Shown here in pieces: positions 1,621 to 63,371 of a stretch of 64,000 nt of DNA; the first letter of the stretch is position 1; each line of letters begins with the position of its first letter. A model generated the notes under the pieces. It worked only from the letters and a program-made list of their open reading frames with translations, was not told the origin of the DNA and did no database searches. The position numbers were made by a program, and so were the translations under genes. Origin of the DNA: Heliocidaris erythrogramma (taxonomy: Eukaryota > Echinodermata > Echinoidea > Camarodonta > Echinometridae); contig CM046867.1 in assembly GCA_025617745.1 (NCBI GenBank), forward strand, positions 29,132,705-29,196,704, in the 5' to 3' direction.

Positions 1621-3944
1621 ATGTACAAAGCCCCAGGTAATGACGGTTTAACTACAGAATTCTACTCCACTTTTTGGTATGTCATTGATGACCTAGTGGT
1701 TGATTGTTTAAATGAAGCTTTTGATAAAGGTGAATTATCTGCATCACAGAAACAAGGGGTCATTACCTTAATTGAAAAAGCAGGTAAAGACCCTCTATAC
1801 ATTAAAAACTACAGACCTATTACATTGTTAAACACCGATTATAAGATTCTCACCAAAGTTTTAGCTAAAAGAATTAAAGAGGTTCTCCCCGAAATTATAC
1901 AGGTTGATCAGGTTGGATACATTAATAATCGAAATATAGGTGAAGCAGTTCGTCTGATCGATGATATTTTATTTCAGGCTTCGAATAACAGTGTAAACGG
2001 TTATTTGTTAGCAGTGGATTTTAAAAAGGCATTTGACTCTGTATCACACGAGTTCATACACAAAGTATTAGAAATTTTTGGATTGGGGGTATCTTTTAGA
2101 CAGTGGATCAAAACACGGTACAGTGGCGCATGTAGTTGTGTCATGAATGGTGGTTTTACAACAGGTTATTTTGATATACAGAGGGGAGTGAGACAGGGAG
2201 ATCCTCTCTCACCATACCTTTTTATACTAACTATTGAATTACTGGCAAATGTTATAAGAAATGATATAGGTGTTAAAGGTTTTTCATTTGCTCAGAATGA
2301 AGTTAAACAAGTGCTATATGCTGATGATGTAACTATTTTCGTACAAGATGCACATTCCTTAAATAGATTAGAAGTACTTTTTGAAGTCTTTGGTAAATTA
2401 AGTGGTCTCATTTTGAACAGGGACAAAACAAATTTAATGAGATTAGGAATCAATACAAACCAGGATTCTGTCCCAAAAGGGTGGAATATGGTGGAGGTTG
2501 TGAAGGTACTAGGCATTTTTTTTTCCATGGATGTTAAGGTTAAAGAAGAAATGAACTACAAAGAAATATTAAGTAAAATAAAAAAGTTATTGAGTTGGTG
2601 GAAGCAAAGAGATTTGACCATTAGGTAAAATTCATCTTCTGAAAACGTATGCACTTTCAAAATTGATATATGTCTCATCTTTAATCGTGGTACCGAAGTG
2701 GGTTTATGTGGAAATAGAAAGAATTACATTTGACTTTATTTGGAAAGGACAAGATAAAATAAAAAGAAACACAATGTATCAAAACTATGAAAATGGAGGT
2801 TTACGGGTAACAAATTTCGAACTTTTTATTAAAGCACAACGTGTTATGTGGATGAAGAGATTAATATATTGTGAAAATCAAATGAAATGGAAGAAGCTTT
2901 TCAATAGGTGGTGTTTTCATTTTTCAATGTAATTATGATATCTCCACGATCAATGTGAAGATACCAACATTCTATGTTGAAATGTTGAAAATATGGCAAG
3001 AAATGGAAGAATGCAGGACAAAAGGGAATGAATGTGTTTCAAATATAATAATATTCAATAACAAGCACGTACGTATTGATAAAAAAATGGTGTTTGATGA
3101 AAAATTGTACTCTCATAATATATTTAAATTTCTGCATTTGATTGATGGAAACGGCCACTTAAGGCCAGTATCATATTTTCAAAACTGTGGTATGGATTCT
3201 AATGATATTTTGAAAATATATGGTATATATGACGCTCTGCCAACGGGGTGGAAACGAGCATTTAGGCTTAATCCATTACAAAGTAAAAATGTCCAAGACG
3301 ACCATATTTCTCTGGAAATATTTGGAAGAAAAGAAACCTTAGATAAAATTTGTTCAAAACAATTATATAAATATTTCATTAACTGTTTAAAAAAGATAGA
3401 TGACATGCATAAAATAAATCGTATTTTCTCAGGTTTAACAGAAAAACAAATTCAGCACATTTTTTTGAGACCTCGTTTTTCAACCGTGAATTGTAAACTT
3501 TGATAATTTCAATTTAAACAGTTGCATGGGGTTATCTATACAAAGGAAAAACTCCATACAATAGGTTTTATCCCTTCTAATAAATGCTCGTTTTGTGATC
3601 AAGAAGCTGAAACTGTTGATCACCTATTTAAAGGCTGCTTGAAAGTTCAAGCACTGTGGAAAGTTATTGGACACAAATTAAGGTTGAAAGAATTGGAGAA
3701 TCTCTCTTTGGAAGACACTTTATTAGGGATTGATGGAAGTTCAAATAGGATAAAATGTTTAAATACAGTAATTTTAATTGTTAAGAAGGAAATTTATTCT
3801 GCAAGGCAGAAATTTGATCTGCCATCTGTCGAAACTATGAGCAAAATTTTTAAAAAGTATAGGGAAGAAGAATATAAGATTGCACAAGTTAGGAACACAT
3901 TGGCAATACATCTCCAGAAATGGCAACAGGTAGTATTAGAGTAA
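1621..3944 (+). pseudogene. LINE ORF2 fragment: reverse transcriptase plus C-terminal domain, frameshifted
   Basis: First open segment 1621-2628 (335 aa) is a reverse transcriptase: NYRPITLLNTDYKILTKVLA (fingers), AVDFKKAFDSV (motif A), GVRQGDPLSPYLF (motif B), and YADD at 2317-2328 (motif C). It is followed by broken segments 2663-2932 (FDFIWKG...GGLRVTNFELFIKAQ, typical of the region after RT in L1/Tx1 elements), 2955-3503 and 3522-3944. The last carries a CSFCDQEAETVDHLFKGC knuckle-like CxxC..H..C motif. Endonuclease and ORF1 are missing. At least three stops or frameshifts separate the segments, so it is not functional. Confidence 0.88.
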
Positions 3945-4231
3945 TTCCAGATTGGGTGCGCATAGTTCAATATTAATTTTTTTTTTTTTTGTGGGGGGGG
4001 GGGGGGGGTTTGGTATGTGTGTGTGCTGTTTTTTTTTTTTTAAACATGTACATGTATTATACAATTAGTAATCTTATGTTATTACGTAAGCTTCATCAAA
4101 TGCAAGTGTATATGTTACACTTTTGAAAATTATTTGTAATATTTTATTTCATTATGTAATGTTTTATGCCACATGTACGTTTTGTTTGTGAATATATCCA
4201 AATAAAATTTGTTTAAAAAAAAAAAAAAAAA
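1621..4231 (+). mobile_element. 5'-truncated L1/Tx1-like non-LTR retrotransposon
   Basis: Begins abruptly inside the reverse transcriptase (KAPGNDGL...), and ends with AATAAA (4201) and an A-run at about 4215-4231. Inserted into the left arm of the foldback element: the flanking GACCGAATGTAC and GAGGGTCTAATAG rejoin to the sequence seen intact, inverted, in the right arm. I see no clear target duplication, so the insertion may have lost a few bases. Confidence 0.85.
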
Positions 4232-4437
4232 GAGGGTCTAATAGACAGACGGTTCTATAGACCGAATCGGCGGAGGGTCCGATAGTCCGAAGGTTCTATT
4301 GATCGAATGTCCAACGGGGTCCGATAGTCAGAAGGTCCGATAGACAGAAGGTTCTATAGACCGAATCGGCAAAAGGGTCCGATAGTCCGAAGGTTTAGTA
4401 GGGGTCCGATAGTTAGAAGGTCCGATAGACCGACAAT
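4232..4437. repeat. inner part of left minisatellite arm of the foldback element
   Basis: About a dozen ~15-bp units (GGGTCCGATAGTCCG, AAGGTTCTATAGACC and variants). Reverse-complement counterpart of 5880-6200. Confidence 0.8.
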
Positions 4438-5879
4438 AACTTAAAAAAGGTAAAATAATTGAATACAATAGGTTTTTAATAGTTTTATCTCATAAAAGGA
4501 AAAGGATAATGCCTTATCTTTTTCTATGTGTATTGTAATAAACCGATGCACTAGGCCCACCCCCCCCAAAAAAAAAATGGGGAACTTCTTTTAAAGTTTT
4601 GTTTTATACATTTTCAACATGTTAAAAGTATTTTTATCAGAGCATCATCATCACCGTGGGGCGGGGGTGCCCCCATACAGCTCAGCCCCCGGTTAATTTT
4701 GCCACTAAACCGATGTATTGGCAATGGGGAACGCTGACCATTGTTTGAAACATGGAAATCTAATTATATGGTGCACACTAAAGCCCCGAGGCCCATCATG
4801 CCCGAAGCATTTTTTTTCTAGTGAAGCAAGCTGAGGAAAGGGCGTCCCCTTTAAGTGTTATTTTTTAAACAAGAAATCTTTATAGTTGAGTTTTCATTAA
4901 ACTTAACAAAAGATAAGATTCTGACAACAAAAGATTCTGCCAGATAAAAATGAAATTGTTTCAATTAGGCCCTACCACCTTCGTGGGAGGGGGGCGTTCC
5001 CGTTTTTATTTTAGGGTTGTCAGGTGATATTTTCCTACCAGCTATGATGTCAGCTTTTATACTTTTTTGAATGTTCACAGACTACACCCATACTACTACC
5101 TTGTGGCAAATTTTAGTCTGTGGACTCTGTCGGGTAAATTATACCATTTTTTTGTGGGGGGGGGGGGGGGGAGGGAATTCGAGAATGGTCGGATACCTCA
5201 CTGCCCGAATATTATGATATTCAGGTTTCTTGTTGCTGCAGGCCTAGTTACTTGATTGTATGAGCGAGCAAAGCGAGCGAACGAGAGAGACAGAAAAAAG
5301 AGAAAAAATTGGTATCCTGAGGATAGTTTCTAGATTCCGTTCTCATAACCTGTGTAACATGTTTTCGGCATCTTCCGTTCTCATATTGGGGAGAGACTAT
5401 TGGTCACAGGCCATTATTTCTGAAAATTCATCTCCTTAGCCCCTTTAGGTCAACTTGCCGCTCGACTCTTTTCAGTTATGTTGCTAACTTTCTTTGAGTA
5501 GAAAAATAGCATAACATTAGCTAGAGATTCAAGATGCAAACCAAATAACTTCCATGAGAATATGACTTATTAATATAATTGGCATTGGTTTATATACATA
5601 AATATGGCGATTATATTAATAACTAATTAATATCAATAATGAAAATATAATGGGCATTGGTAAATAACCCTAATAATGCTAGTGAGCGAAGTTTTTGCAT
5701 TTTTGTTTTCTTCTCTTTCCTTTCTGATTTCTTGTTTTCTTTTTCTCTTCTTTTCATTACTTTTATTTTCTTCTTTCCTTTTCAACCTCTTCCTTTTTTA
5801 TTTTTCTTTGGTTGGAACGCCCCCACTTATTTTAACGACTTATTTTTACCCACTTTTTTACCCTTTTTACGTTTTTATT
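4438..5879. other. core of foldback element, no coding region seen
   Basis: Contains homopolymer tracts (C-run with A-run near 4560, G-runs near 4985 and 5155-5172) and a T-rich stretch at 5690-5870. No transposase motif was found; open stretches here are low complexity. Confidence 0.5.
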
Positions 5880-18069: not shown

Positions 18070-19432
18070 TAGAATCAGGTGATAGCGAAACAGGTGATAG
18101 CGAGATCGTTAACCGATATCATATATGCGTCCTTGACCACGGGATGTGTACCCAAGGGTTGGAAAGAAGCTCGAGTAATTCCAATTTTTAAAGCTGGTGA
18201 TATGTCTGATCCAAGCAGTTACCGCCCAATTTCTATTTTGTCTGTTGTTAGCAAAATCATAGAGAGGGCTGTACATCGCCAGCTTTCTGAATTCATTGAC
18301 GATAATAATATAATTAATTCCAGTCAGTCTGGTTTTCGAGCAAAGCATTCTATCGCAACAGCACTCATGAAATTTGTTAATAATTTATCATGGAACACTG
18401 AAAACAGACAGATCTCTGGGGTAGCTTTCATAGACCTTCGTAAAGCATTTGACACAGTTGATCACAATCTTTTATTAGAAAAGTTATCTGCTATTGGATG
18501 TTCACATGAATGTGTAAACTGGTTCAGATCTTATTTAACAGGTCGTGAACAGTCTGACCATGTTAAAGGTGCAAAATCTAATCCATTAACTCTATTGATG
18601 GGCGTACCACAGGGGTCTATTTTGTGTCCGTTATTATTTTCCATCTATGTAAATAATTTACCAAATTGTATATCTGATGGTTATGTTGATATGTATGCGG
18701 ACGATACCACTTTAACTGTGAGTGGAAGTAGCGTATCTGAGGTTGAAGAAAAACTTTCTTTCGCATTGGAAGAATTAATGGTATGGATTAATCAAAACCG
18801 CCTTGTACTAAACACGGAGAAGACATGCGTGATGCATGGTCATTGCTTCGCGTGCTAATTTAAACAAAATAACATCCTTCAATGTTTCTATAAATGGAAA
18901 GGTATTGAAAAGAGTTAATGTCGCCAAATGTCTTGGTATATTAATTGATGAAGAATTGAATTGGTCCAAACACGTTGACAAAGTAACAAAGGTAACGCAG
19001 AGAAATGTCAGTGTAATAAAACGAGCGAAGGATTATTTACCATTAACATCTTTAAAGATGCTGTATAATGCACTCGTGTTGCCTCACTTTGATTATTGTT
19101 CCTCTGTGTGGTCAAATCGATATCAGGAAAAAACGTATAAGCTTCAGAAAGTTCAAAAACGAGCTGCTAGAATAATTTCAAACAAAAGTTATGACGTCCC
19201 ATCAAGTGAATTAATTAGCAATCTGAAATGGATGCCAATTGAGAAACGATTTGAATTTCAGCGTGTTACTATGATGTTCAAGTGTACACACAATTTGGCA
19301 CCATCCTATTTACAAGGAAGTTTAGTTAAAGTAAGTGACATTCATCAGTACCATACGAGGCAGGCAGATGAAGGTTTACTTAACAGCATAAATGAGTCAT
19401 ATTCATTCTTATTGCTAGAAAATTTCACTTGA
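18070..19432 (+). pseudogene. CR1/L2-like LINE reverse transcriptase, truncated and frameshifted
   Basis: 18079-18858 contains VPKGWKEARVIPIFKAGDMS, SSYRPISILSVVSKIIERAV, the motif-A peptide VAFIDLRKAFDTVDHNLLLE, GVPQGSILCPLLFSIYVNNL and YADD at 18694-18705. This wording is that of CR1/L2-type elements. Near 18840 the frame shifts. 18836-19432 continues with CLGILIDEELNWSKHVDKVT, LPHFDYCSSVWSN, and KLQKVQKRAARIISNKSYD, the thumb/connection region. It stops at LLLENFT, short of the usual C-terminus. 5' truncated: no endonuclease or ORF1. Inactive. Confidence 0.87.
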
Positions 19433-29950: not shown

Positions 29951-29990
29951 TACGATATATATATATATATATAATTTGTATAAACATTAT

Positions 29991-31223
29991 GTTATACATA
30001 ATTTGTATAAACGCTCGCTGCACATGCAGTTTGAGCACTGTCTTTAGATTGCGTGGAGAGTCTCTATGTGAGACGTTCACTATTTGCGTTATATGCAATG
30101 CTCGCTGCTCGCAGTTTGAGCACTCTGGTGACTCCATTATGCAATTCTTCCCCACAATGTGTAACCGCACAGCAAGGGTCCCAAGTCCTTGTGTTGCCAT
30201 AAAGCCATTATGGTGATAGCCGGGAGGGCGCATTGTTATACATAATTTGTATAAACGCTCGCTGCACATGCAGTTTGAGCACTGTCTTTAGATTGCGTGG
30301 AGAGTCTCTATGTGAGACGTTCACTATTTGCGTTATATGCAATGCTCGCTGCTCGCAGTTTGAGCACTCTGGTGACTCCATTATGCAATTCTTCCCCACA
30401 ATGTGTAACCGCACAGCAAGGGTCCCAAGTCCTTGTGTTGCCATAAAGCCATTATGGTGATAGCCGGGAGGGCGCATTGTTATACATAATTTGTATAAAC
30501 GCTCGCTGCACATGCAGTTTGAGCACTGTCTTTAGATTGCGTGGAGAGTCTCTATGTGAGACGTTCACTATTTGCGTTATATGCAATGCTCGCTGCTCGC
30601 AGTTTGAGCACTCTGGTGACTCCATTATGCAATTCTTCCCCACAATGTGTAACCGCACAGCAAGGGTCCCAAGTCCTTGTGTTGCCATAAAGCCATTATG
30701 GTGATAGCCGGGAGGGCGCATTGTTATACATAATTTGTATAAACGCTCGCTGCACATGCAGTTTGAGCACTGTCTTTAGATTGCGTGGAGAGTCTCTATG
30801 TGAGACGTTCACTATTTGCGTTATATGCAATGCTCGCTGCTCGCAGTTTGAGCACTCTGGTGACTCCATTATGCAATTCTTCCCCACAATGTGTAACCGC
30901 ACAGCAAGGGTCCCAAGTCCTTGTGTTGCCATAAAGCCATTATGGTGATAGCCGGGAGGGCGCATTGTTATACATAATTTGTATAAACGCTCGCTGCACA
31001 TGCAGTTTGAGCACTGTCTTTAGATTGCGTGGAGAGTCTCTATGTGAGACGTTCACTATTTGCGTTATATGCAATGCTCGCTGCTCGCAGTTTGAGCACT
31101 CTGGTGACTCCATTATGCAATTCTTCCCCACAATGTGTAACCGCACAGCAAGGGTCCCAAGTCCTTGTGTTGCCATAAAGCCATTATGGTGATAGCCGGG
31201 AGGGCGCATTGTTATACATAATT

Positions 31224-31229
<6 letters not shown>
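29991..31229. repeat. 244-bp tandem repeat, five full units plus 19 bp
   Basis: Units start at 29991, 30235, 30479, 30723 and 30967 with GTTATACATAATTTGTATAA; a sixth begins at 31211 and runs into (TA)n. Units look identical by eye. Each contains two related words, GCAGTTTGAGCACTGT and GCAGTTTGAGCACTCT, ~90 bp apart. 244 is not divisible by 3, and each unit's open frames end at the unit joint, so I do not treat it as coding. Confidence 0.92.
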
Positions 31230-47369: not shown

Positions 47370-47391
47370 CACTGGAATCCTACTACTACTA

Positions 47392-47427
<36 letters not shown>

Positions 47428-47837
47428 ATGCGGCTGCTACTACTACTACTACTACTTCTACTACTAAGTACCACCACCACCGCCACTACTACTAATTCAT
47501 TTCTAATACTATTACTTATAGAACTACAGCTACTACTACTACTGACTACTACTACTACTCTTTCTAGTACTACTACCACTACCACTACTACTGCTACTGC
47601 TGCTGCTGCTACAACTACTACTCCCATTTTTAGTACTACTCTCACCACCGCTACTACTACTACTACCACCACCAACACCACCACTAGCGGTAGAAGTAGT
47701 CGTAGTCGTAGTCGTAGTAGCAGTAGTAGTAGTAGTAGTAGTAATAGCAATACTACTACCACTACCACCACTATCATTACTTTTAGTAGTACTACCACCA
47801 CCACTACTATATATACCACCACAACTGCTACTACTGT

Positions 47838-47873
<36 letters not shown>

Positions 47874-47893
47874 GACTACTACTACTACTACTC

Positions 47894-47929
<36 letters not shown>

Positions 47930-48139
47930 TTACTACTACTAATAATACAACTATTTCTACTTCTACTACCACCACTGCAACTTCTAGCAGTACTACAACC
48001 ACCAAAACTACTACTTCTCTTACTACTCTACATGCAACTACGACAACTACTTATATATCTATTATTAATACTGCGACTACTAGTAGTAGTACAACTACAA
48101 CTATTACTACTACTACTACTACAACTGATATTACTATTG

Positions 48140-48174
<35 letters not shown>

Positions 48175-49036
48175 TTTACAACTACAAATATTACTGCTGT
48201 TACTACTACTACTACTACTCACACCACCACCGCCACTACTATTAAGTCATTTCTGATACTATTACTTCTTCTACTACTACTACTACTACTACCACTACAA
48301 TTACAATAACAACTACTAGAACTACTACTTCTACTACTACGACGACGACGACGATGACTACTAATTCTACTACTACTACTTCTACTACAATTACTACTAC
48401 TACAACTACTACTACTAGTACTACTACTACTATTTCTAATACTACTACCACCACTACTACTATTACTACAGCTGTTCCTACTTCTATATACTTTTACTAC
48501 TACTTCTACTACTATTTTAGTACTACTATCACCACCGCTACTACTACTACTACCACCACCACCAACACCACCACTAGTGGGAGAAGTATTTTAGTACTAC
48601 TACCACCACGACTGCTACTACTGTTACTACTACTACTACTACAGCTACTTCTACTTCGACTACTACTACTACTACTAATAATACAACTACTTCTACTACC
48701 ACCACTGCTACTTCTACCACTACTACAACCACCACCACCACACCTACTACTTCTCTTACTACTATTACTGCTACTACTACAACTACTACTCCTACCACCA
48801 CCGTCACTACTCTGCCGGGGGATACAACTACTTATATTACTACTACTGTTACTACTAGTACAATTAAAACTACAATGTACTACTACTACTACTACTGCTA
48901 CCACCACTACTAATACAACTACAACTATTAATACTACTACTGCTGCTATTACTATTGCTACTACTACTACTACGATGACGACGACGACGACGACGACTAC
49001 CGCTACTGCTACTACTTCTACTACTAATACTACTAT
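47370..49036. repeat. ~1.7-kb imperfect (ACT)n tract
   Basis: Starts ~18 bp after the exon 4 donor. Units ACT, with ACC, TCT and short AGT-strand interruptions. Resumes at 49155-49240 after a MITE and again at 55780-55905 after a 6.5-kb element. Copy A has a ~50-bp version at the same spot. Confidence 0.95.
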
Positions 49037-49044
49037 GATGACGT

Positions 49045-49145
49045 CATGGGCGCCAATCCTCACAGGAATTCTATTCAAGTGGGGGGGGGGGGGGGGTGTG
49101 TCCCCCCCCACTTGAATAGAATTCCTGTGAGGATTGACGCCCATG
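49045..49145. mobile_element. 101-bp hairpin MITE with perfect 8-bp target duplication
   Basis: CATGGGCGCCAATCCTCACA..TTCAAGTGGGGGG and its inverse, arms ~45 bp around a G/C run. Flanked by GATGACGT on both sides (49037-49044, 49146-49153). hAT-type by duplication length. Inserted in the ACT tract. Confidence 0.85.
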
Positions 49146-49242
49146 GATGACGTTAACGACGACTACCGCTACTACTTCTACTCCTACTACTCCTACTGCT
49201 ACTGCAACTACAATTACTACTACTGTACTTCTACTATTTCTA

Positions 49243-50780
49243 CCCTTACAAAAATATCCTGTGGTATTCCTGTGGTATTTCTGTGGTACTTTATAATACC
49301 ACAGAAAATACCACAGGGATGAAGAGGTACCACACATAAGCATGTGGTACTGCAGAGGTGTAGCCTGTGGTACCCATGTGGTATGAAAAATACCATAAGA
49401 AATACCACAAAGAAAAACTATACCACAAAAATACCATACAGTAGTGCTGTGGTATTTATATAGTACAGTGTACTACCACAGAAAATACCACAGGGATAAA
49501 AAGGCCCACACAGATTCCTGTGGTACTGCAGAGGAGTAGCCTGTGGTACATACTTGGAACTAAAAATACAACAGGGATGAAGAGGTACCACACATAAGCA
49601 TGTGGTACTGCAGAGATGTAGCTTGTGGTACCCATGTGGTATGACAAATACCATAAGAAATACCACAAAGAAAAACTATGCCACAAAAATACCATACAGC
49701 AGTGCTGTGGTATTTATATAGTACAGTGTAATACCACAGAAAATACCACAGGGATGAAAAGGCCCACACAGATTCCTGTGGTACTGCAGAGGAGTATAGT
49801 CTGTGGTACATACTTGGAACTAAAAATACCACAGGGATGAAAAGGCCCACACAGGTTCATGTGGTACTGCAGAGGAGTATAGCCTGTGGTACATACTTGG
49901 AACTAAAAATACCACAGGGATGAAAGGGCCCACACAGATTCCTGTGGTATGTGTCGCCTGTGGTACCCATGTGGTACCCATTTACCCACAGGAAATACTA
50001 CAAAGAAAATTTACCACAGAAATATCATACAACAGTGCTGTACTGTTGTACAGTGTGACAAGGCTGTAAGAGATACCATACAGATTCCTGTGGTGCTGCA
50101 GAGGAGTAGCCTGTGGTACATACTTGGACCTAAAATGAAAAGGCCCACACAGATTCCTGTGGTATACTGCAGATATGATCGCCTGTGGTAGCCATGTGGT
50201 AAAAGAAATACCACAGCACTGCTGTATGGTATATATAGTACAGTGTAATACCACAGGGATGAAAAGGCCCACACCGATTCCTGTGGTATACTGCAGATGT
50301 GATCGCCTGTGGTAGCCATGTGGTAAAAGAAATACCACAGGAAATACTACAAAGAAAGATGTACCACAGAAATATCATACAACAGTACGTGCTGTGTTAT
50401 TTATGTGGTACAGTGTACACGGCTGTAAAATATACCACATAAATCATAAATAACACAGCACTGTTGTATGATATTTCTGTGGTACATTTTTCTTTGTAGT
50501 ATTTCATGTGGTATTTCTTTTACCACATGACTACCACAGGCGATCACATCTGTAGTACCACAGGAATCTGTGTGGGCCTTTTCATCCCTGTGGTATTACA
50601 CTGTACTATATATATACCACAGCACTGCTGTATGGTATTTTTGTGCTATAGTTTTTCTTTGTGGTATTTCCTATGGTATTTTTCATACCACTGTACTATA
50701 TAAATAACACAGCACCGCTGTATGGTAATTTGTGGTATAGTTTTTCTTTGTGGTATTTCCTATGAAATTTTTCATACCCT
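49243..50780. repeat. left TGTGGTA array of the 6.5-kb element
   Basis: Higher-order units of ~200-240 bp such as AATACCACAGGGATGAAAAG..GCCCACACAGATTCCTGTGG..CTGCAGAGGAGTAG. 50450-50760 is the inverse of 50140-50400. Confidence 0.85.
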
Positions 50781-50870
50781 CAGAAGATGCCTCAGAATGA
50801 ATAGCTCGAAACACATTGAATTATTTCAATCAGTTAGTGAATTCTGAACACTTTAGTATGTTTAATATCA

Positions 50871-50998
50871 GGGGCCTGTAACATTTATAAAGATACAATA
50901 AATCTTACAATCAATTGTAACTCTTTAGTACATGGTTTGCCATAGACTTACGATTGATCAATCGTAAGATTGAGTTATCTCTTTATGTTACGGGCCCC
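50871..50998. mobile_element. 128-bp palindromic MITE (GGGGCCTGTAACAT ends)
   Basis: GGGGCCTGTAACATTTATAA and inverse ..TTTATGTTACGGGCCCC. Inner TCTTACAATCAATTG / CGATTGATCAATCGTAAGA also pair. Confidence 0.75.
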
Positions 50999-52913
50999 AA
51001 ATTAAAGTGCTATTAAGCATCAATACCATCGCGACGCGTAGGCCTATTGATTACCAACATATTACATTTTATTGCAAAATGGTCTGAATCTAATAGACTA
51101 TGCACAAGCAACTGCACACACACACAGACACACACATGTATTGGTATACCGGTACACACCATAGAGTTGAGTTCTGTGTATAACTCTATGGCAGACACTA
51201 TGGCAGACATATTTGGCAATATGCCAGCTGTTACATTAACGCGGTCTTTGCATGCATGCAGTTCGGGCATGCGCAGCTAGCTAGAGATTCAAATGATCTA
51301 CAACAGCCAGTGATTGCAAGTGAAAGGCAGAACATGTGCCTACAAGATTTCTGGATTATAAACTTCATTTCAAAGGTGAGCAATGGCAATGTATTTTATG
51401 AAGTAATAGCAATTCATTTAATATTATTCACTTTCTTGATGGGTTTTTTTGTACTGAGCATCACTCGACAGTTGATGAGTGAGAGTAATGAATGAAGGTT
51501 TAAGTTAAGCTTGTAGTTCCACCTATTCATATACATGTATTCGTTGTTTTTGTCCTATGGTGGGTATCAACTTTCTGCATGCATGTTTCATAAATCAAAT
51601 AAGCGATGCTACGTTATTTTATGAGTAGATAGACCTATAGTGTCCCTGAAAAGAGCCAAAATTATTCAAACATTAATGTAGAGGCTGCATGGCCGGCAGG
51701 GGGGGGGGGGGGGGGTGGGGGAGTTGCATCTGATCATCCGGTGCATAAATTTTGTTAGATGTATCAAATTTAATGACGAATCCGGAGGATCTAATAAAAT
51801 TTACTTTGCAATAGTTGCTCAGGAAGACATTTTCTGAAAATATTTTGATGTTTTCTTGCAAGAATGTTGTGAAATTAAATAAAAAGAATGATTTAAATAT
51901 GTAGATATGAACAAAAACATTTTATTACAACTTTGATAATGATATTTGGAAATGGGAAGATGATGCATTCTTTTTTCTTCTGCCATTGTGTAAATTAAAT
52001 TGACACTTTCTTTTTTAATTGTTCATTTTCTTTTATCTGCATGGCAGGAAAGATGGCATTTTGTTCAGTCTGAGGCTCGGCAGGATCAAGCTTATGTCTA
52101 AGGGATTGGACCTGAGCGAAGCGTTCTGCCTACATGTACATGTAGGTACGTGAGGAATTCGGCGAGCATGTCTTAGCTGCGTTAGTAAGAGTGGATCTGT
52201 GGGCACGTGGTACCGTGCTTGGGCTCAGAGGAGTACTTATATGTAGCAGCATGTGTGACTCGTACGTACATGTTTAGAATCATTCATATAAGATTAACTT
52301 ATCATTTGCTAGTCTTTATAATGACACTTTAAATTTCTGAGATAATGTCAAGTCATAATGTAAATGTCTTATCTATTTGACAAGCCTTTTTTAATTTACT
52401 TTTTACTTGTCTCCTCAAAAAAGTGGACTTGGAAGTCAGATTACAAAAATGATTTTAAAAATGTATTCTTCTGTTGGGGCAATGTATGAAATTTGCATAG
52501 TTATGAAAATACATGTATCATAAGAATAGGGGAATATCTTTGGGAAATCCTCACTTTTGAACATGAAACTGAAACAATAATGTAGGTGACATTTAAAAAA
52601 CAGAAATACTATTGAAGACTTTACTCTTACTCAGAGCCCTGCAGTATCCTTGATCATGAGAAGAGGAGACTGATAATATACATGTTATACTTGTACTTGT
52701 TATACTTAACAATTAGCCACTTGTGCATTCTTTCAAAATTGTAATCAAGAGGAAAACTGTGTTCTAAACAAGAGACAATATTTCAGATATGTGTTAGTTG
52801 TGTATTTTTTAGATTATAGTCATGTCCATTCATAGGAATGTAACTGCTGTCCTCATGAAAGTAGCATTTTTAACTGAGAAATGACCAGTAACAAAATTTT
52901 GCAATGTCCCTCA

Positions 52914-53096
52914 ACTCTCTAGTGAGCGTGTGTGAAGAACATTTTATTTGACCAAGTTTATGAGTGAGCACACATCAAAAGAAACTGTCGCTCTTCAAAA
53001 TTCACAATGGTCTCTTCATAAGCTCATTGTACCAAGAATTCTTGGTACAATGAGCTTTTGAAGAATGTTCTTCACACATGCTAGCTAGAGAGTTTT
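52914..53096. mobile_element. hairpin MITE with a 38-bp perfect palindrome
   Basis: Outer CTCTCTAGTGAGCGTGTGTG..AAGAACATT pairs with AATGTTCTTCACACATGCTA..GAGAG. 53020-53057 is a perfect palindrome beginning AAGCTCATTGTACCAAGAA. Inner words (GTGAGCACACATCAAAAG) resemble the subterminal part of the element at 31311-32049. Confidence 0.65.
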
Positions 53097-53976
53097 GTAC
53101 TCATGACTTATTTCATTCAAGTCTTGTGCATCTTTTCGGACAGAAAAAAAAAGAATGTTTCAAAAGTATTATGGCGGTATTCATGAACTGTACTATTCAA
53201 CTTTCAATATAATCAGTAAATCAAACTGTAACATGGGAGCCTGGAACTGGCCTCCAAATGGGAAAATTTGCAGAGGACGTTGGTAGTTCTCAACTACTCA
53301 TCGAGCATAATTTCATGTAGGTGTAAGATGCCAAAAGGGGAGCTCCTCAACAAATGTTGAACTTCAATGTCTTCTGAAGTCAGGTTTTAGTGCTACATTC
53401 ATTCTTGGAGCTTTTTTTTCTCATTCCTGAATTAACTCAATACTGCCTCCCTGTTTTCCATGTAGTATCTATTCAGGGATTTGAATCATATGTTACTAGT
53501 GTTTCAAAGTTAATTTCTTAACAGTTACGGGTCAATTTTACTTCAATACTTTACCTGCCTTTTACCTTGAGAGTGTGTACCACACAAATATTTATTCAGG
53601 TACACTCTGTATTTATTGCATGGCGACATGTTTTTATTATATATCTATCTTAAATGAAACTTATAAGTTCCTCAAGAATTTGTAAGTGTATATCAGATTA
53701 CCAACAAAGTTTATATACTTTTCCTATTTCTTTTTTTAAAGAGAGAGAATATCTGCAAATGCTTGAGGGACTTACAAGTTGTGCAGAGTTTAAATATCAG
53801 TATACACGTAGCAGTTTATATATGTATATTTCCTTTTATTAAAAGTGAAGGAATTTGTTCCCTTAACTTGCAATTTCCACTTTCATTATATGTAGTAAAA
53901 CGTGTTGGTCTGTAGTATTCTGATGGGATCATGCTTGATGGTGAATTATTTTGTGAATGTGGTAATAGAGTGCAAG

Positions 53977-54098
53977 TCACAATTCTTCTACCTGTTAACC
54001 TGCAAGCGCTGAATTCAATAGATATGGTCCGGTGATCCCACTGTGATCCTATTGTGATAAGCTTTTGCAGGTTAACAGGTAGAAGAAGAATTGTGACA
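53977..54098. mobile_element. hairpin MITE (CACAATTCTTCTACCTGTTAACC)
   Basis: CACAATTCTTCTACCTGTTA..ACCTGCAA pairs with TTGCAGGTTAACAGGTAGAA..GAATTGTG (three extra bases on the right arm). Confidence 0.75.
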
Positions 54099-54109
54099 GG
54101 CACTGTACT

Positions 54110-55777
54110 TGGCAAAACCGCACACCAGTAGCATGCATCAGTACCAAACAGAAAACCCACACAGTAGTATGACAGAGCGATACCAGAGAGTACAAGACTC
54201 ACACACAGCAATACCACATAGGAGTACCACAGAGCTTTACCACAGAGGAGTACCACACAGCTTTACCACAGTGGAGTACCATACAGCTATACCACAGGGG
54301 AATACCAAATAGCAGTACCACAGGAGTACCTCACAGCAATACCACAGACGAGTACCACACAGCAATACCACAGATGAGTAGCACACAGTAATACCACAGG
54401 GGAAACTACAGAGCAATACCACAGGGTAATACTACAGAAATACCACAGAGAAGTACCACACAGCAATACTACAGAGGAGTACCGCAAAGCAATACCACAA
54501 GGGAGTACCACATAGTAATACCATATGAGAGTAGCTGTGTGGTACTCTCATATTCAGTATGGTATTTTTGTGTGGTACTTCTCTGTGGTATTGGCCTATG
54601 TCCAAAGATGAACTCAGGTATTGCTGTGTGGTACATCTGTGTGGTACTGGTTTTCGGTACTGCTATGCGGTATGTGGTAAACATCTGTGGTATTGCCCTA
54701 TGGTATACCACAGGAATTGCTATGTGGTACAGCTTTGTGGTACTGCTGTGTGGTACAGCCATGTGGTACTGCTGTGTGGTACAGCCATGTGGTACTGCTG
54801 TGTGGTACAGCCATGTGGTACTGCTATGTGGTACTGCTGTGTGGTACAGCTATGTGGTATTGACGTGATTTGTGTGGTATATGTCCCAAAATACCACATG
54901 TATTGCTGTGTGGTACAGCCATGTGGTACTGCTGTGTGGTACAGCCATGTGGTACTGCTGTGTGGTACAGCCATGTGGTACAGCCATGTGGTACTGCTAT
55001 GTGGTATTGCTGTGTGGTACAGCCATGTGGTATTGACGTGATTTGTGTGGTATATGTCCCAAAATACCACATGTATTGCTGTGTGGTACAGCCATGTGGT
55101 ACTGCTGTGTGGTACATCCATGTGGTACAGCCATGTGGTACTGCTATGTGGTACAGCCATGTGGTACTGCTATGTGGTATTGCTGTGTGGTACAGCTATG
55201 TGGTACTGCTATGTGGTACAGCCATGTGGTACTGCTATGTGCTACAGCCATGTGGTATTGACGTGATTTGTGTGGTATATGTCCCAAAATACCACATGTA
55301 TTGCTGTGTGGTACAGCCATGTGGTACTGCTGTGTGGTACAGCCATGTGGTACAGCCATGTGGTACTGCTGTGTGGTACAGCCATGTGGTATTGACGTGA
55401 TTTGTGTGGTATATGTCCCAAAATACCACATGTATTGATGTGTGGTACTGGCATGCGGTATTGCTTTGTGGTATTGTTTTGTGGTATTAACATGTGGTAA
55501 TGGGCCCGGGGTTCTGTGGTATACGTCCCAAAATACCACAAGATCCACAGGTGAATTCCATGGGTATTTTTCTTGTGGTATTTTCTATGTGGTAATCCCG
55601 TGTGGTATTTATGTGTGGTACTTCTATGTGGTAAATGTCCCAAAAAACCACAGGAATTTTCTGTGGTATACCACAGGAATTTTCCTATGGTATACCACAG
55701 GAATTTTCCTATGGTATATCCTATGGTATATCCTGTGGTAACGTTGTGTGGTATACCACAGAAAATTTTTGTAAGGG
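54110..55777. repeat. right TGTGGTA array of the 6.5-kb element
   Basis: 13-bp-like units (TACCACACAGCAA) up to ~54530, then inverted units (TGTGGTACTGCTG, TGTGGTACAGCCA). A longer word, TGACGTGATTTGTGTGGTAT..GTCCCAAAATACCACA, recurs at 54861, 55034, 55259 and 55393. Confidence 0.85.
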
Positions 55778-55779
55778 TA

Positions 55780-55865
55780 CCACGACCACCACGACCACCA
55801 CAACTACTACTACTACTTCTACTAATACTACTACTACGACGACCACGACGACTACCGCTACTACT

Positions 55866-55902
<37 letters not shown>

Positions 55903-62762: not shown

Positions 62763-63371
62763 ATGATGCTTGAAGAATATAATTTGCAGGAAAGTTTTGA
62801 TTGCAGGTATTATGTACCCAATGAGTATAACCCTTTCATAAATGTTCAGCATTCTCACCACTCACAGTGCTTAAGTTTCTTACACTGTAATGCCAGAAGC
62901 ATCTCAAAGAACTTTGAAAGCATTAATATCATGCTGTCCTCATTAAAATTTAACTGTTCCATTATCGGTATTTCCGAGACATGGTTGAATCAATCATCAC
63001 CCCCTCTATTTACTTTGGAGGGATATAGTGCAGTTCGTAAAGACAGACCCAACGGAAGAGGTGGTGGTGTTCTCTTGTACATCTCAGATAAGTTATCTTT
63101 CAAAATTGGAGAAGACCTTTCATTTTCAAGTCAGAGTGCCGAGCTTTTATGTATAGAGGTAGATCTGCCCGCCGAGAGGAATTTCATAGTGTGTATAGTG
63201 TATAGACCACCAAGTAATGATGTTGATAGTTTTCTTGACGATCTTGAATCACTAATGTGTGCAATTAACACATGTGAAAAATCAGTCTGTATTATGGGTG
63301 ATTTTAACATAGATTTTTTGGCAACTAATTATATCCTGATACAAGTGTTTTCATTTCTAATCGTGACATAA
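62763..63371 (+). CDS. LINE apurinic-type endonuclease, C-terminally truncated by deletion
   Basis: 202 residues. Endonuclease/exonuclease/phosphatase motifs: SFLHCNARSISKN (Asn), IIGISETWLNQSS (Glu), RPNGRGGGVLLYISDKLSFK, FIVCIVYRPPSND (Tyr), CIMGDFNIDFL (Asp/Asn). This cuts target DNA to prime reverse transcription. After TNY the sequence jumps to RT C-terminal sequence in another frame and stops, so the last endonuclease motif (SDH) and most of the RT are gone. Confidence 0.82.
   Translation: MMLEEYNLQESFDCRYYVPNEYNPFINVQHSHHSQCLSFLHCNARSISKNFESINIMLSSLKFNCSIIGISETWLNQSSPPLFTLEGYSAVRKDRPNGRGGGVLLYISDKLSFKIGEDLSFSSQSAELLCIEVDLPAERNFIVCIVYRPPSNDVDSFLDDLESLMCAINTCEKSVCIMGDFNIDFLATNYILIQVFSFLIVT

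Follow-up and report, generated by a model that had tools for sequence, protein, structure and literature searches.

A putative non-autonomous CACTA/EnSpm transposon with kilobase-scale TGTGGTA arms in the genome of Heliocidaris erythrogramma

Within the CACTA superfamily, animal TRC elements are described as having ends which start with CCC and as being flanked by 2-bp direct repeats (PMC1636069; PMC4298943; here and below, statements on published elements refer to the consulted portions of the cited reports). For SmTRC1, the 2-bp direct repeat is reported at 7 of 14 copies, and the repeat described is a 15-base motif inside the 54-bp end, the term "subterminal" not being used (PMC1636069). 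Subterminal repeats of CACTA elements are bound by TNPA and able to form stem-loops: in Spm/En, these repeats are recognised by TNPA, the putative transposase being TNPD (PMC2613891). We describe here a 6,535-bp element, inserted at positions 49243-55777 of a 64-kb stretch of contig CM046867.1 from Heliocidaris erythrogramma ("the window" in the following), which is very probably a non-autonomous CACTA/EnSpm transposon of the animal TRC type, moved in trans by a transposase of the Transposase_21 class.

An initial annotation had interpreted two large arrays as a single inserted element, bounded by exact inverted ends, with TA outside and an ACT repeat beyond. All of these features are present. 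The 13-bp terminal inverted repeats are exact, ATTTTTGTAAGGG being the reverse complement of CCCTTACAAAAAT, and both begin with CCC; the element is flanked by TA at either end, followed outward by ACT/CTA tracts. The features of the locus are, in window coordinates:

47380..49242, no strand: host CTA/ACT tract left of the insertion, resuming at about 55780-55902
49241..49242, no strand: TA, target duplication of 2 bp, left copy
49243..49255, plus strand: left terminal inverted repeat CCCTTACAAAAAT
49256..50779, no strand: left arm, with 57 TGTGGTA/TACCACA words arrayed in the two orientations and a flip near 50400 (inner boundary approximate)
50780..54138, no strand: interior, conserved from copy to copy, in which no coding sequence is recognised (approximate boundaries)
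54139..55764, no strand: right arm, 13-bp-phased TGTGGTA array, 90 words, four TGACGTGATTTGTGTGG, flipping near 54530 (inner edge approximate)
55765..55777, minus strand: right terminal inverted repeat ATTTTTGTAAGGG
55778..55779, no strand: TA, target duplication of 2 bp, right copy

The element contains 149 instances of the word TGTGGTA or its complement TACCACA, of which 57 belong to the left arm, 90 to the right arm and 2 to the interior; the remainder of the window has 13. The two arms, about 1.5 kb each, together contain 147 exact words; plant CACTA subterminal arrays are, as far as known, shorter. Words are present in both orientations next to the ends, and each arm flips orientation inside itself, as originally noticed: in the left arm, segments 50289-50386 and 50460-50557 are 96% complementary, while in the right arm 54202-54359 and 54673-54830 are 74% complementary. 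The long word reported to recur four times in the right arm, TGACGTGATTTGTGTGG, does so at 54861, 55034, 55259 and 55393; it occurs nowhere else in the element, and never in shuffled sequences. When the ability to fold as a single strand was compared with that of shuffles, the first and the last 150 bases were far superior (z -6.1 and -6.5, respectively), whereas a 150-base interior piece folded no better than its shuffles (z 0.0). No match to Rfam was found in the element at gathering thresholds, and self-comparison of the window revealed no large duplication around it.

No coding sequence is recognised in the interior. Its longest stop-to-stop frames are of 103 amino acids (51184-51495) and 148 amino acids (53816-54262, extending into the right arm); in a Pfam scan of four interior frames no cut-off was reached, the one match being sub-threshold (E 0.11). 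The majority sequence of the interior (2.4 kb, 14 copies) contains no frame above 86 codons.

Both arms are reported as tandem repeats, or minisatellites, by a tandem-repeat finder, which could suggest two unrelated minisatellites within the ACT tract, with edges matching by chance. The distribution of the ends in the 1.06-Gb genome, searched with reversed sequences as controls, makes the probability of such a coincidence practically nil. For the 13-base end there are 227+226 occurrences, compared with 37+33 of the reversed sequence. In most copies the two ends can be told apart: after AAAAAT, the left one continues with ATCCTGTGG and the right one with TTTCTGTGG. The left-type signature (22 bases) is found 187 times (92+95) and the right-type signature 98 times (52+46), while their controls are never found. 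Pairing was evaluated for the first 100 listed of the 187 left-type ends, reaching C12:4.35 Mb and including 22 of a short-element type. In this listed part of the genome, the search for inward-pointing ends, which had been proposed as a check, yields many pairs: for 43 of 56 right ends, a left end oriented correctly lies at a distance of 5.2-9.7 kb, against two right ends near a wrongly oriented one. Edges pairing 43 times at similar spacing, with duplications and a common interior, refute a chance association, and the two arrays are parts of one element.

A sample of copies was obtained from the 20 convergent pairs among the first 100 listed places of the 13-mer, by fetching 19 places (20 regions). 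For 15 of the 19, the sequence aligns to the window element over most of its length, and identities of 93.6-99.5% are found for the interiors compared. Four short elements (L009, L010, L011 and L023; 0.66-1.5 kb) feature the same ends and word-filled arms, and blastn at 1e-20 does not match them to the window element. A search with the interior gave 41 matches at 40 places, including the window's own, all of them 95-100% identical (40 of 223 candidates were scored). Kimura two-parameter (K2P) distances were computed for the 14 copies whose interiors align over 2 kb or more, after dropping two with less; the mean is 0.015 and the range 0.003-0.025, and L024 is the nearest to the window copy (0.004). 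Because of these low distances, the TGTGGTA-armed family is considered young, having moved recently on an evolutionary scale.

Two copies deserve a separate description. One, of 12,802 bp (L017/L018, G000:C2:70505100-70518500), contains tandem repetitions of an internal segment, corresponding to about 2361-5788 of the element, as unequal exchange would give. The other, L014, contains a different insert of about 2.9 kb (L014:1300-4234) with edges GGCTTAGGAA...TTCCTAAGCC and repeated GGGGCTCGGATATCATTGAGCCCC-like words, perhaps another word-array transposon.

The target duplication was evaluated on 20 elements with both ends, the 19 fetched ones and that of the window. A 2-bp direct repeat flanks 17 of the 20 and a 3-bp repeat none; when the same test is slid outward by 2-7 bases, it is positive for 0-3 elements. 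The duplicated dinucleotides are TA, AG, GT, TT, TC, CT, CA, TG, AT, GA and AC. TA, which the initial annotation had taken for the target, flanks only the window copy and one more element (L025), and 15 of the 17 duplications are different. Since duplications vary in sequence among elements, the TA of the window copy is one case of a sequence-unspecific 2-bp duplication and not a target rule. These data also bear on the superfamily. The TA at the window copy and at L025 is what a Tc1/mariner, PHISTA or ESTA-type element would show; such an assignment is highly improbable, since the variety of the duplications refutes it, provided that the 20 elements are representative. An element of the PHIS group such as ISL2EU, which would equally account for a duplication of 2 bp, is just as improbable, and is likewise refuted by the variety of the duplications: ISL2EU is described as duplicating AT inside A|AT|T (PMC4482050), while AT accounts for 2 of the 17 duplications here, and the CCCTT ends resemble instead those of elements encoding Transposase_21.

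Such elements are present in the same genome. A profile search for Transposase_21 (PF02992) genes gave 14 matches, and 56 were obtained in a translated search with one of them, in which 54 of 85 candidates were scored. Pfam confirmed five translated frames, four with E values from 1e-7 to 7e-15 and that of family E with 2e-7. Family A features an 877-aa (amino acid) frame and three copies 99.6-99.8% identical, family C an 835-aa frame and two copies (C13, C2) 99.7% identical, family E a 751-aa frame. The copies at G000:C8:46491240, C21:95430 and C21:41632516, and those at C13:5347449 and C2:23338409, are 99.6-99.8% identical over 3.5 kb; because of this near identity, CACTA elements must have moved very recently in the genome of Heliocidaris erythrogramma.

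The right ends of families A, C and E were located by comparing copies, which agree up to ...AAGGG and then differ in their flanks. This was observed for two A copies, two C copies and six E ends, five of the latter being further ends not known to carry a transposase gene. The end of family C, CCCTTACAGAAAT, matches the window element at 12 of 13 bases, that of family A, CCCTTATAGAAAT, at 11 and that of family E, CCCTTGTAAAAAAT, at 10; read inward, they are CCCTTATAGAAATTC (A), CCCTTACAGAAATTT (C) and CCCTTGTAAAAAATAACC (E). Just inside the end, all three feature a dense array of a single word, GCAAGCTTGC in A and C, AACCATGGTT in E. The window element has CCC-starting ends, a 2-bp duplication and ends similar to those of Transposase_21-encoding elements. 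The family, which had not been recognised originally, may on the resemblance of ends and architecture be assigned to the CCC-ended TRC branch of CACTA/EnSpm. It could also be a non-autonomous element of an undescribed superfamily, with 2-bp duplications and CCCTT ends reached by convergence, as the searches revealed no TGTGGTA-armed partner encoding a transposase. This is improbable, given that a Transposase_21 element from the same genome has the same word-array architecture and an end identical at 12 of 13 bases.

An autonomous copy with a transposase, which the initial annotation had suggested looking for, was not found among the copies checked. The transposase frames of L029-L042 gave no tblastn match (1e-2) to the window copy, to 18 other places (L023 being left out) or to L055. 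Since the element encodes no recognised Transposase_21 protein, it can only be a non-autonomous derivative, never an autonomous member. The largest copies were considered as candidates and rejected, none having a transposase match: the extra length of L014 (8,971 bp) is due to its other, repeat-like insert, that of L015 (9,685 bp) to a second left part and that of L017/L018 (12,802 bp) to the tandem internal duplications, while L055 (9.3 kb) is a related variant.

A number of observations do not favour a CACTA/EnSpm element moved by a Transposase_21 protein. A transposase was not seen in any of the copies having these ends and TGTGGTA arms; of 39 transposase-like places, the nearest lies 245 kb from a listed family end (a weak match) and the next 263 kb; and the TGTGGTA array is found in none of the 19 transposase loci read for 2-5 kb downstream. 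In about half of these 19 loci no array of any word is seen within that distance, and their ends may for this reason lie further out. Reading upstream over 10 kb for A, 5 kb for B, 5 kb for C and 8 kb for E did not reveal the left ends of these autonomous families; nor did a search with CCCTTACAGAAAT reveal one near the copies of family C. Genome-wide, CCCTTACAGAAAT alone is hardly above chance (33 occurrences against 22 in the control), so that the link to family C rests on its position at the edge of the element. For a third family A copy (L069), no end is visible within the 1 kb examined; the candidate end of family B, CCTATACAAATTT, is less certain and matches the window element at 9 of 13 bases. 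Finally, 13 of the 56 right ends evaluated for pairing have no partner, and three of the 20 elements (L015, L026 and the internally duplicated 12.8-kb copy) have no 2-bp duplication. The mobilising source may be a diverged copy which escaped the search, may be absent from the assembly or may have been lost.

If the element is of the CACTA/EnSpm type, its 13-bp ends would be the cleavage sites for a Transposase_21 protein supplied in trans from elsewhere, and the TGTGGTA arms, about 1.5 kb each, a subterminal binding array for a second, TNPA-like DNA-binding protein, which, by analogy with Spm/En, may align both ends. The repeats near the ends had indeed been suggested to be binding sites: they do look like a subterminal region of the transposase/TNPA type, the binding itself being a prediction by analogy. 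Both the identity of the mobilising transposase and the binding of protein to the arms are inferred here.

Words differ among transposase lineages. Families A, B and C, which are 68-75% identical, cluster in a tree built on the transposase core and share GCAAGCTTGC, arrays of which are present in family B too. The group of L040, L041 and L077 (85-95% identical) has AACTGGAACC in common where read, downstream of L040 and L077. Family E is separate and has its own word, AACCATGGTT. Still other words are found at L037 and L062, which are related loci, and at some loci no word was seen. It is possible, albeit doubtful, that the CACTA lineages of this genome each maintain a short word of their own, amplified into large subterminal arrays, the word following the transposase lineage (GCAAGCTTGC for A/B/C, AACTGGAACC for the L040/L077 group, AACCATGGTT for E, with TGTGGTA in the window family); the pattern is drawn from a small sample of three transposase groups. 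If it holds, the TGTGGTA family would be an extreme case: in the competition with other copies for a dimeric binding protein specific to the lineage, its binding platforms of kilobase scale would prevail, and it would perhaps be mobilised with no matching autonomous element left in the assembly. Transposase lineages with private array words would offer a natural series for testing the co-evolution of binding protein and binding sites, a question raised for plant CACTA elements (PMC2613891).

Other features of the window may be mentioned. In the same CTA tract, just left of the element, a 101-bp palindrome with a G/C run mid-way (49045-49145) looks like a MITE-like (small hairpin) insertion. 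At 29990-31229, five tandem 244-bp units, 100% identical over 1,240 bp, lie beside arrays of a 15-bp GGACAACTACCCC-type repeat; they indicate either a very recent amplification or an assembly effect. Frames for reverse transcriptase (PF00078) and endonuclease (PF03372), at 1600-2625, 18073-18855 and 62763-63368, are retroelement fragments, probably of the non-LTR (non-long-terminal-repeat) kind.

The placement of the window element next to CACTA elements follows from the agreement of end sequence, array architecture and short duplication. The superfamily is thus a known and ordinary one, what is notable being the size of the arms and the family-specific words: CCC-ended elements of the CACTA type can carry subterminal arrays sized like minisatellites. 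As the arms are reported as minisatellites by a repeat finder, similar arrays elsewhere may be unrecognised transposon arms. The TGTGGTA-armed family and its end sequence were not found in the literature searched, which did not cover Repbase. The closest likeness to TRC elements (SmTRC1 of Schistosoma, the TRCs of Tribolium and Aedes) lies in the CCC-starting ends with a 2-bp direct repeat and in the presence of Transposase_21 relatives in the same genome; unlike them, as far as they are described, the window element has no recognised gene and features arms of about 1.5 kb made of one word (PMC1636069). Spongebob, or EnSpm-4N1_HM, of Hydra shares the CCC ends, the 2-bp duplication and a similar length (5,836 bp), while its end sequence, CCCAGCCAACATTGAC, is different (PMC4298943). 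Plant CACTA elements (Spm/En, Tgmt*) likewise combine short conserved ends with a subterminal motif found in both orientations, able to form stem-loops and varying by subfamily; they differ in starting with CACTA, in a 3-bp duplication and in motifs of 12-17 bp, and the inverted words and hairpin potential of the window element resemble those of the soybean element (PMC2613891).

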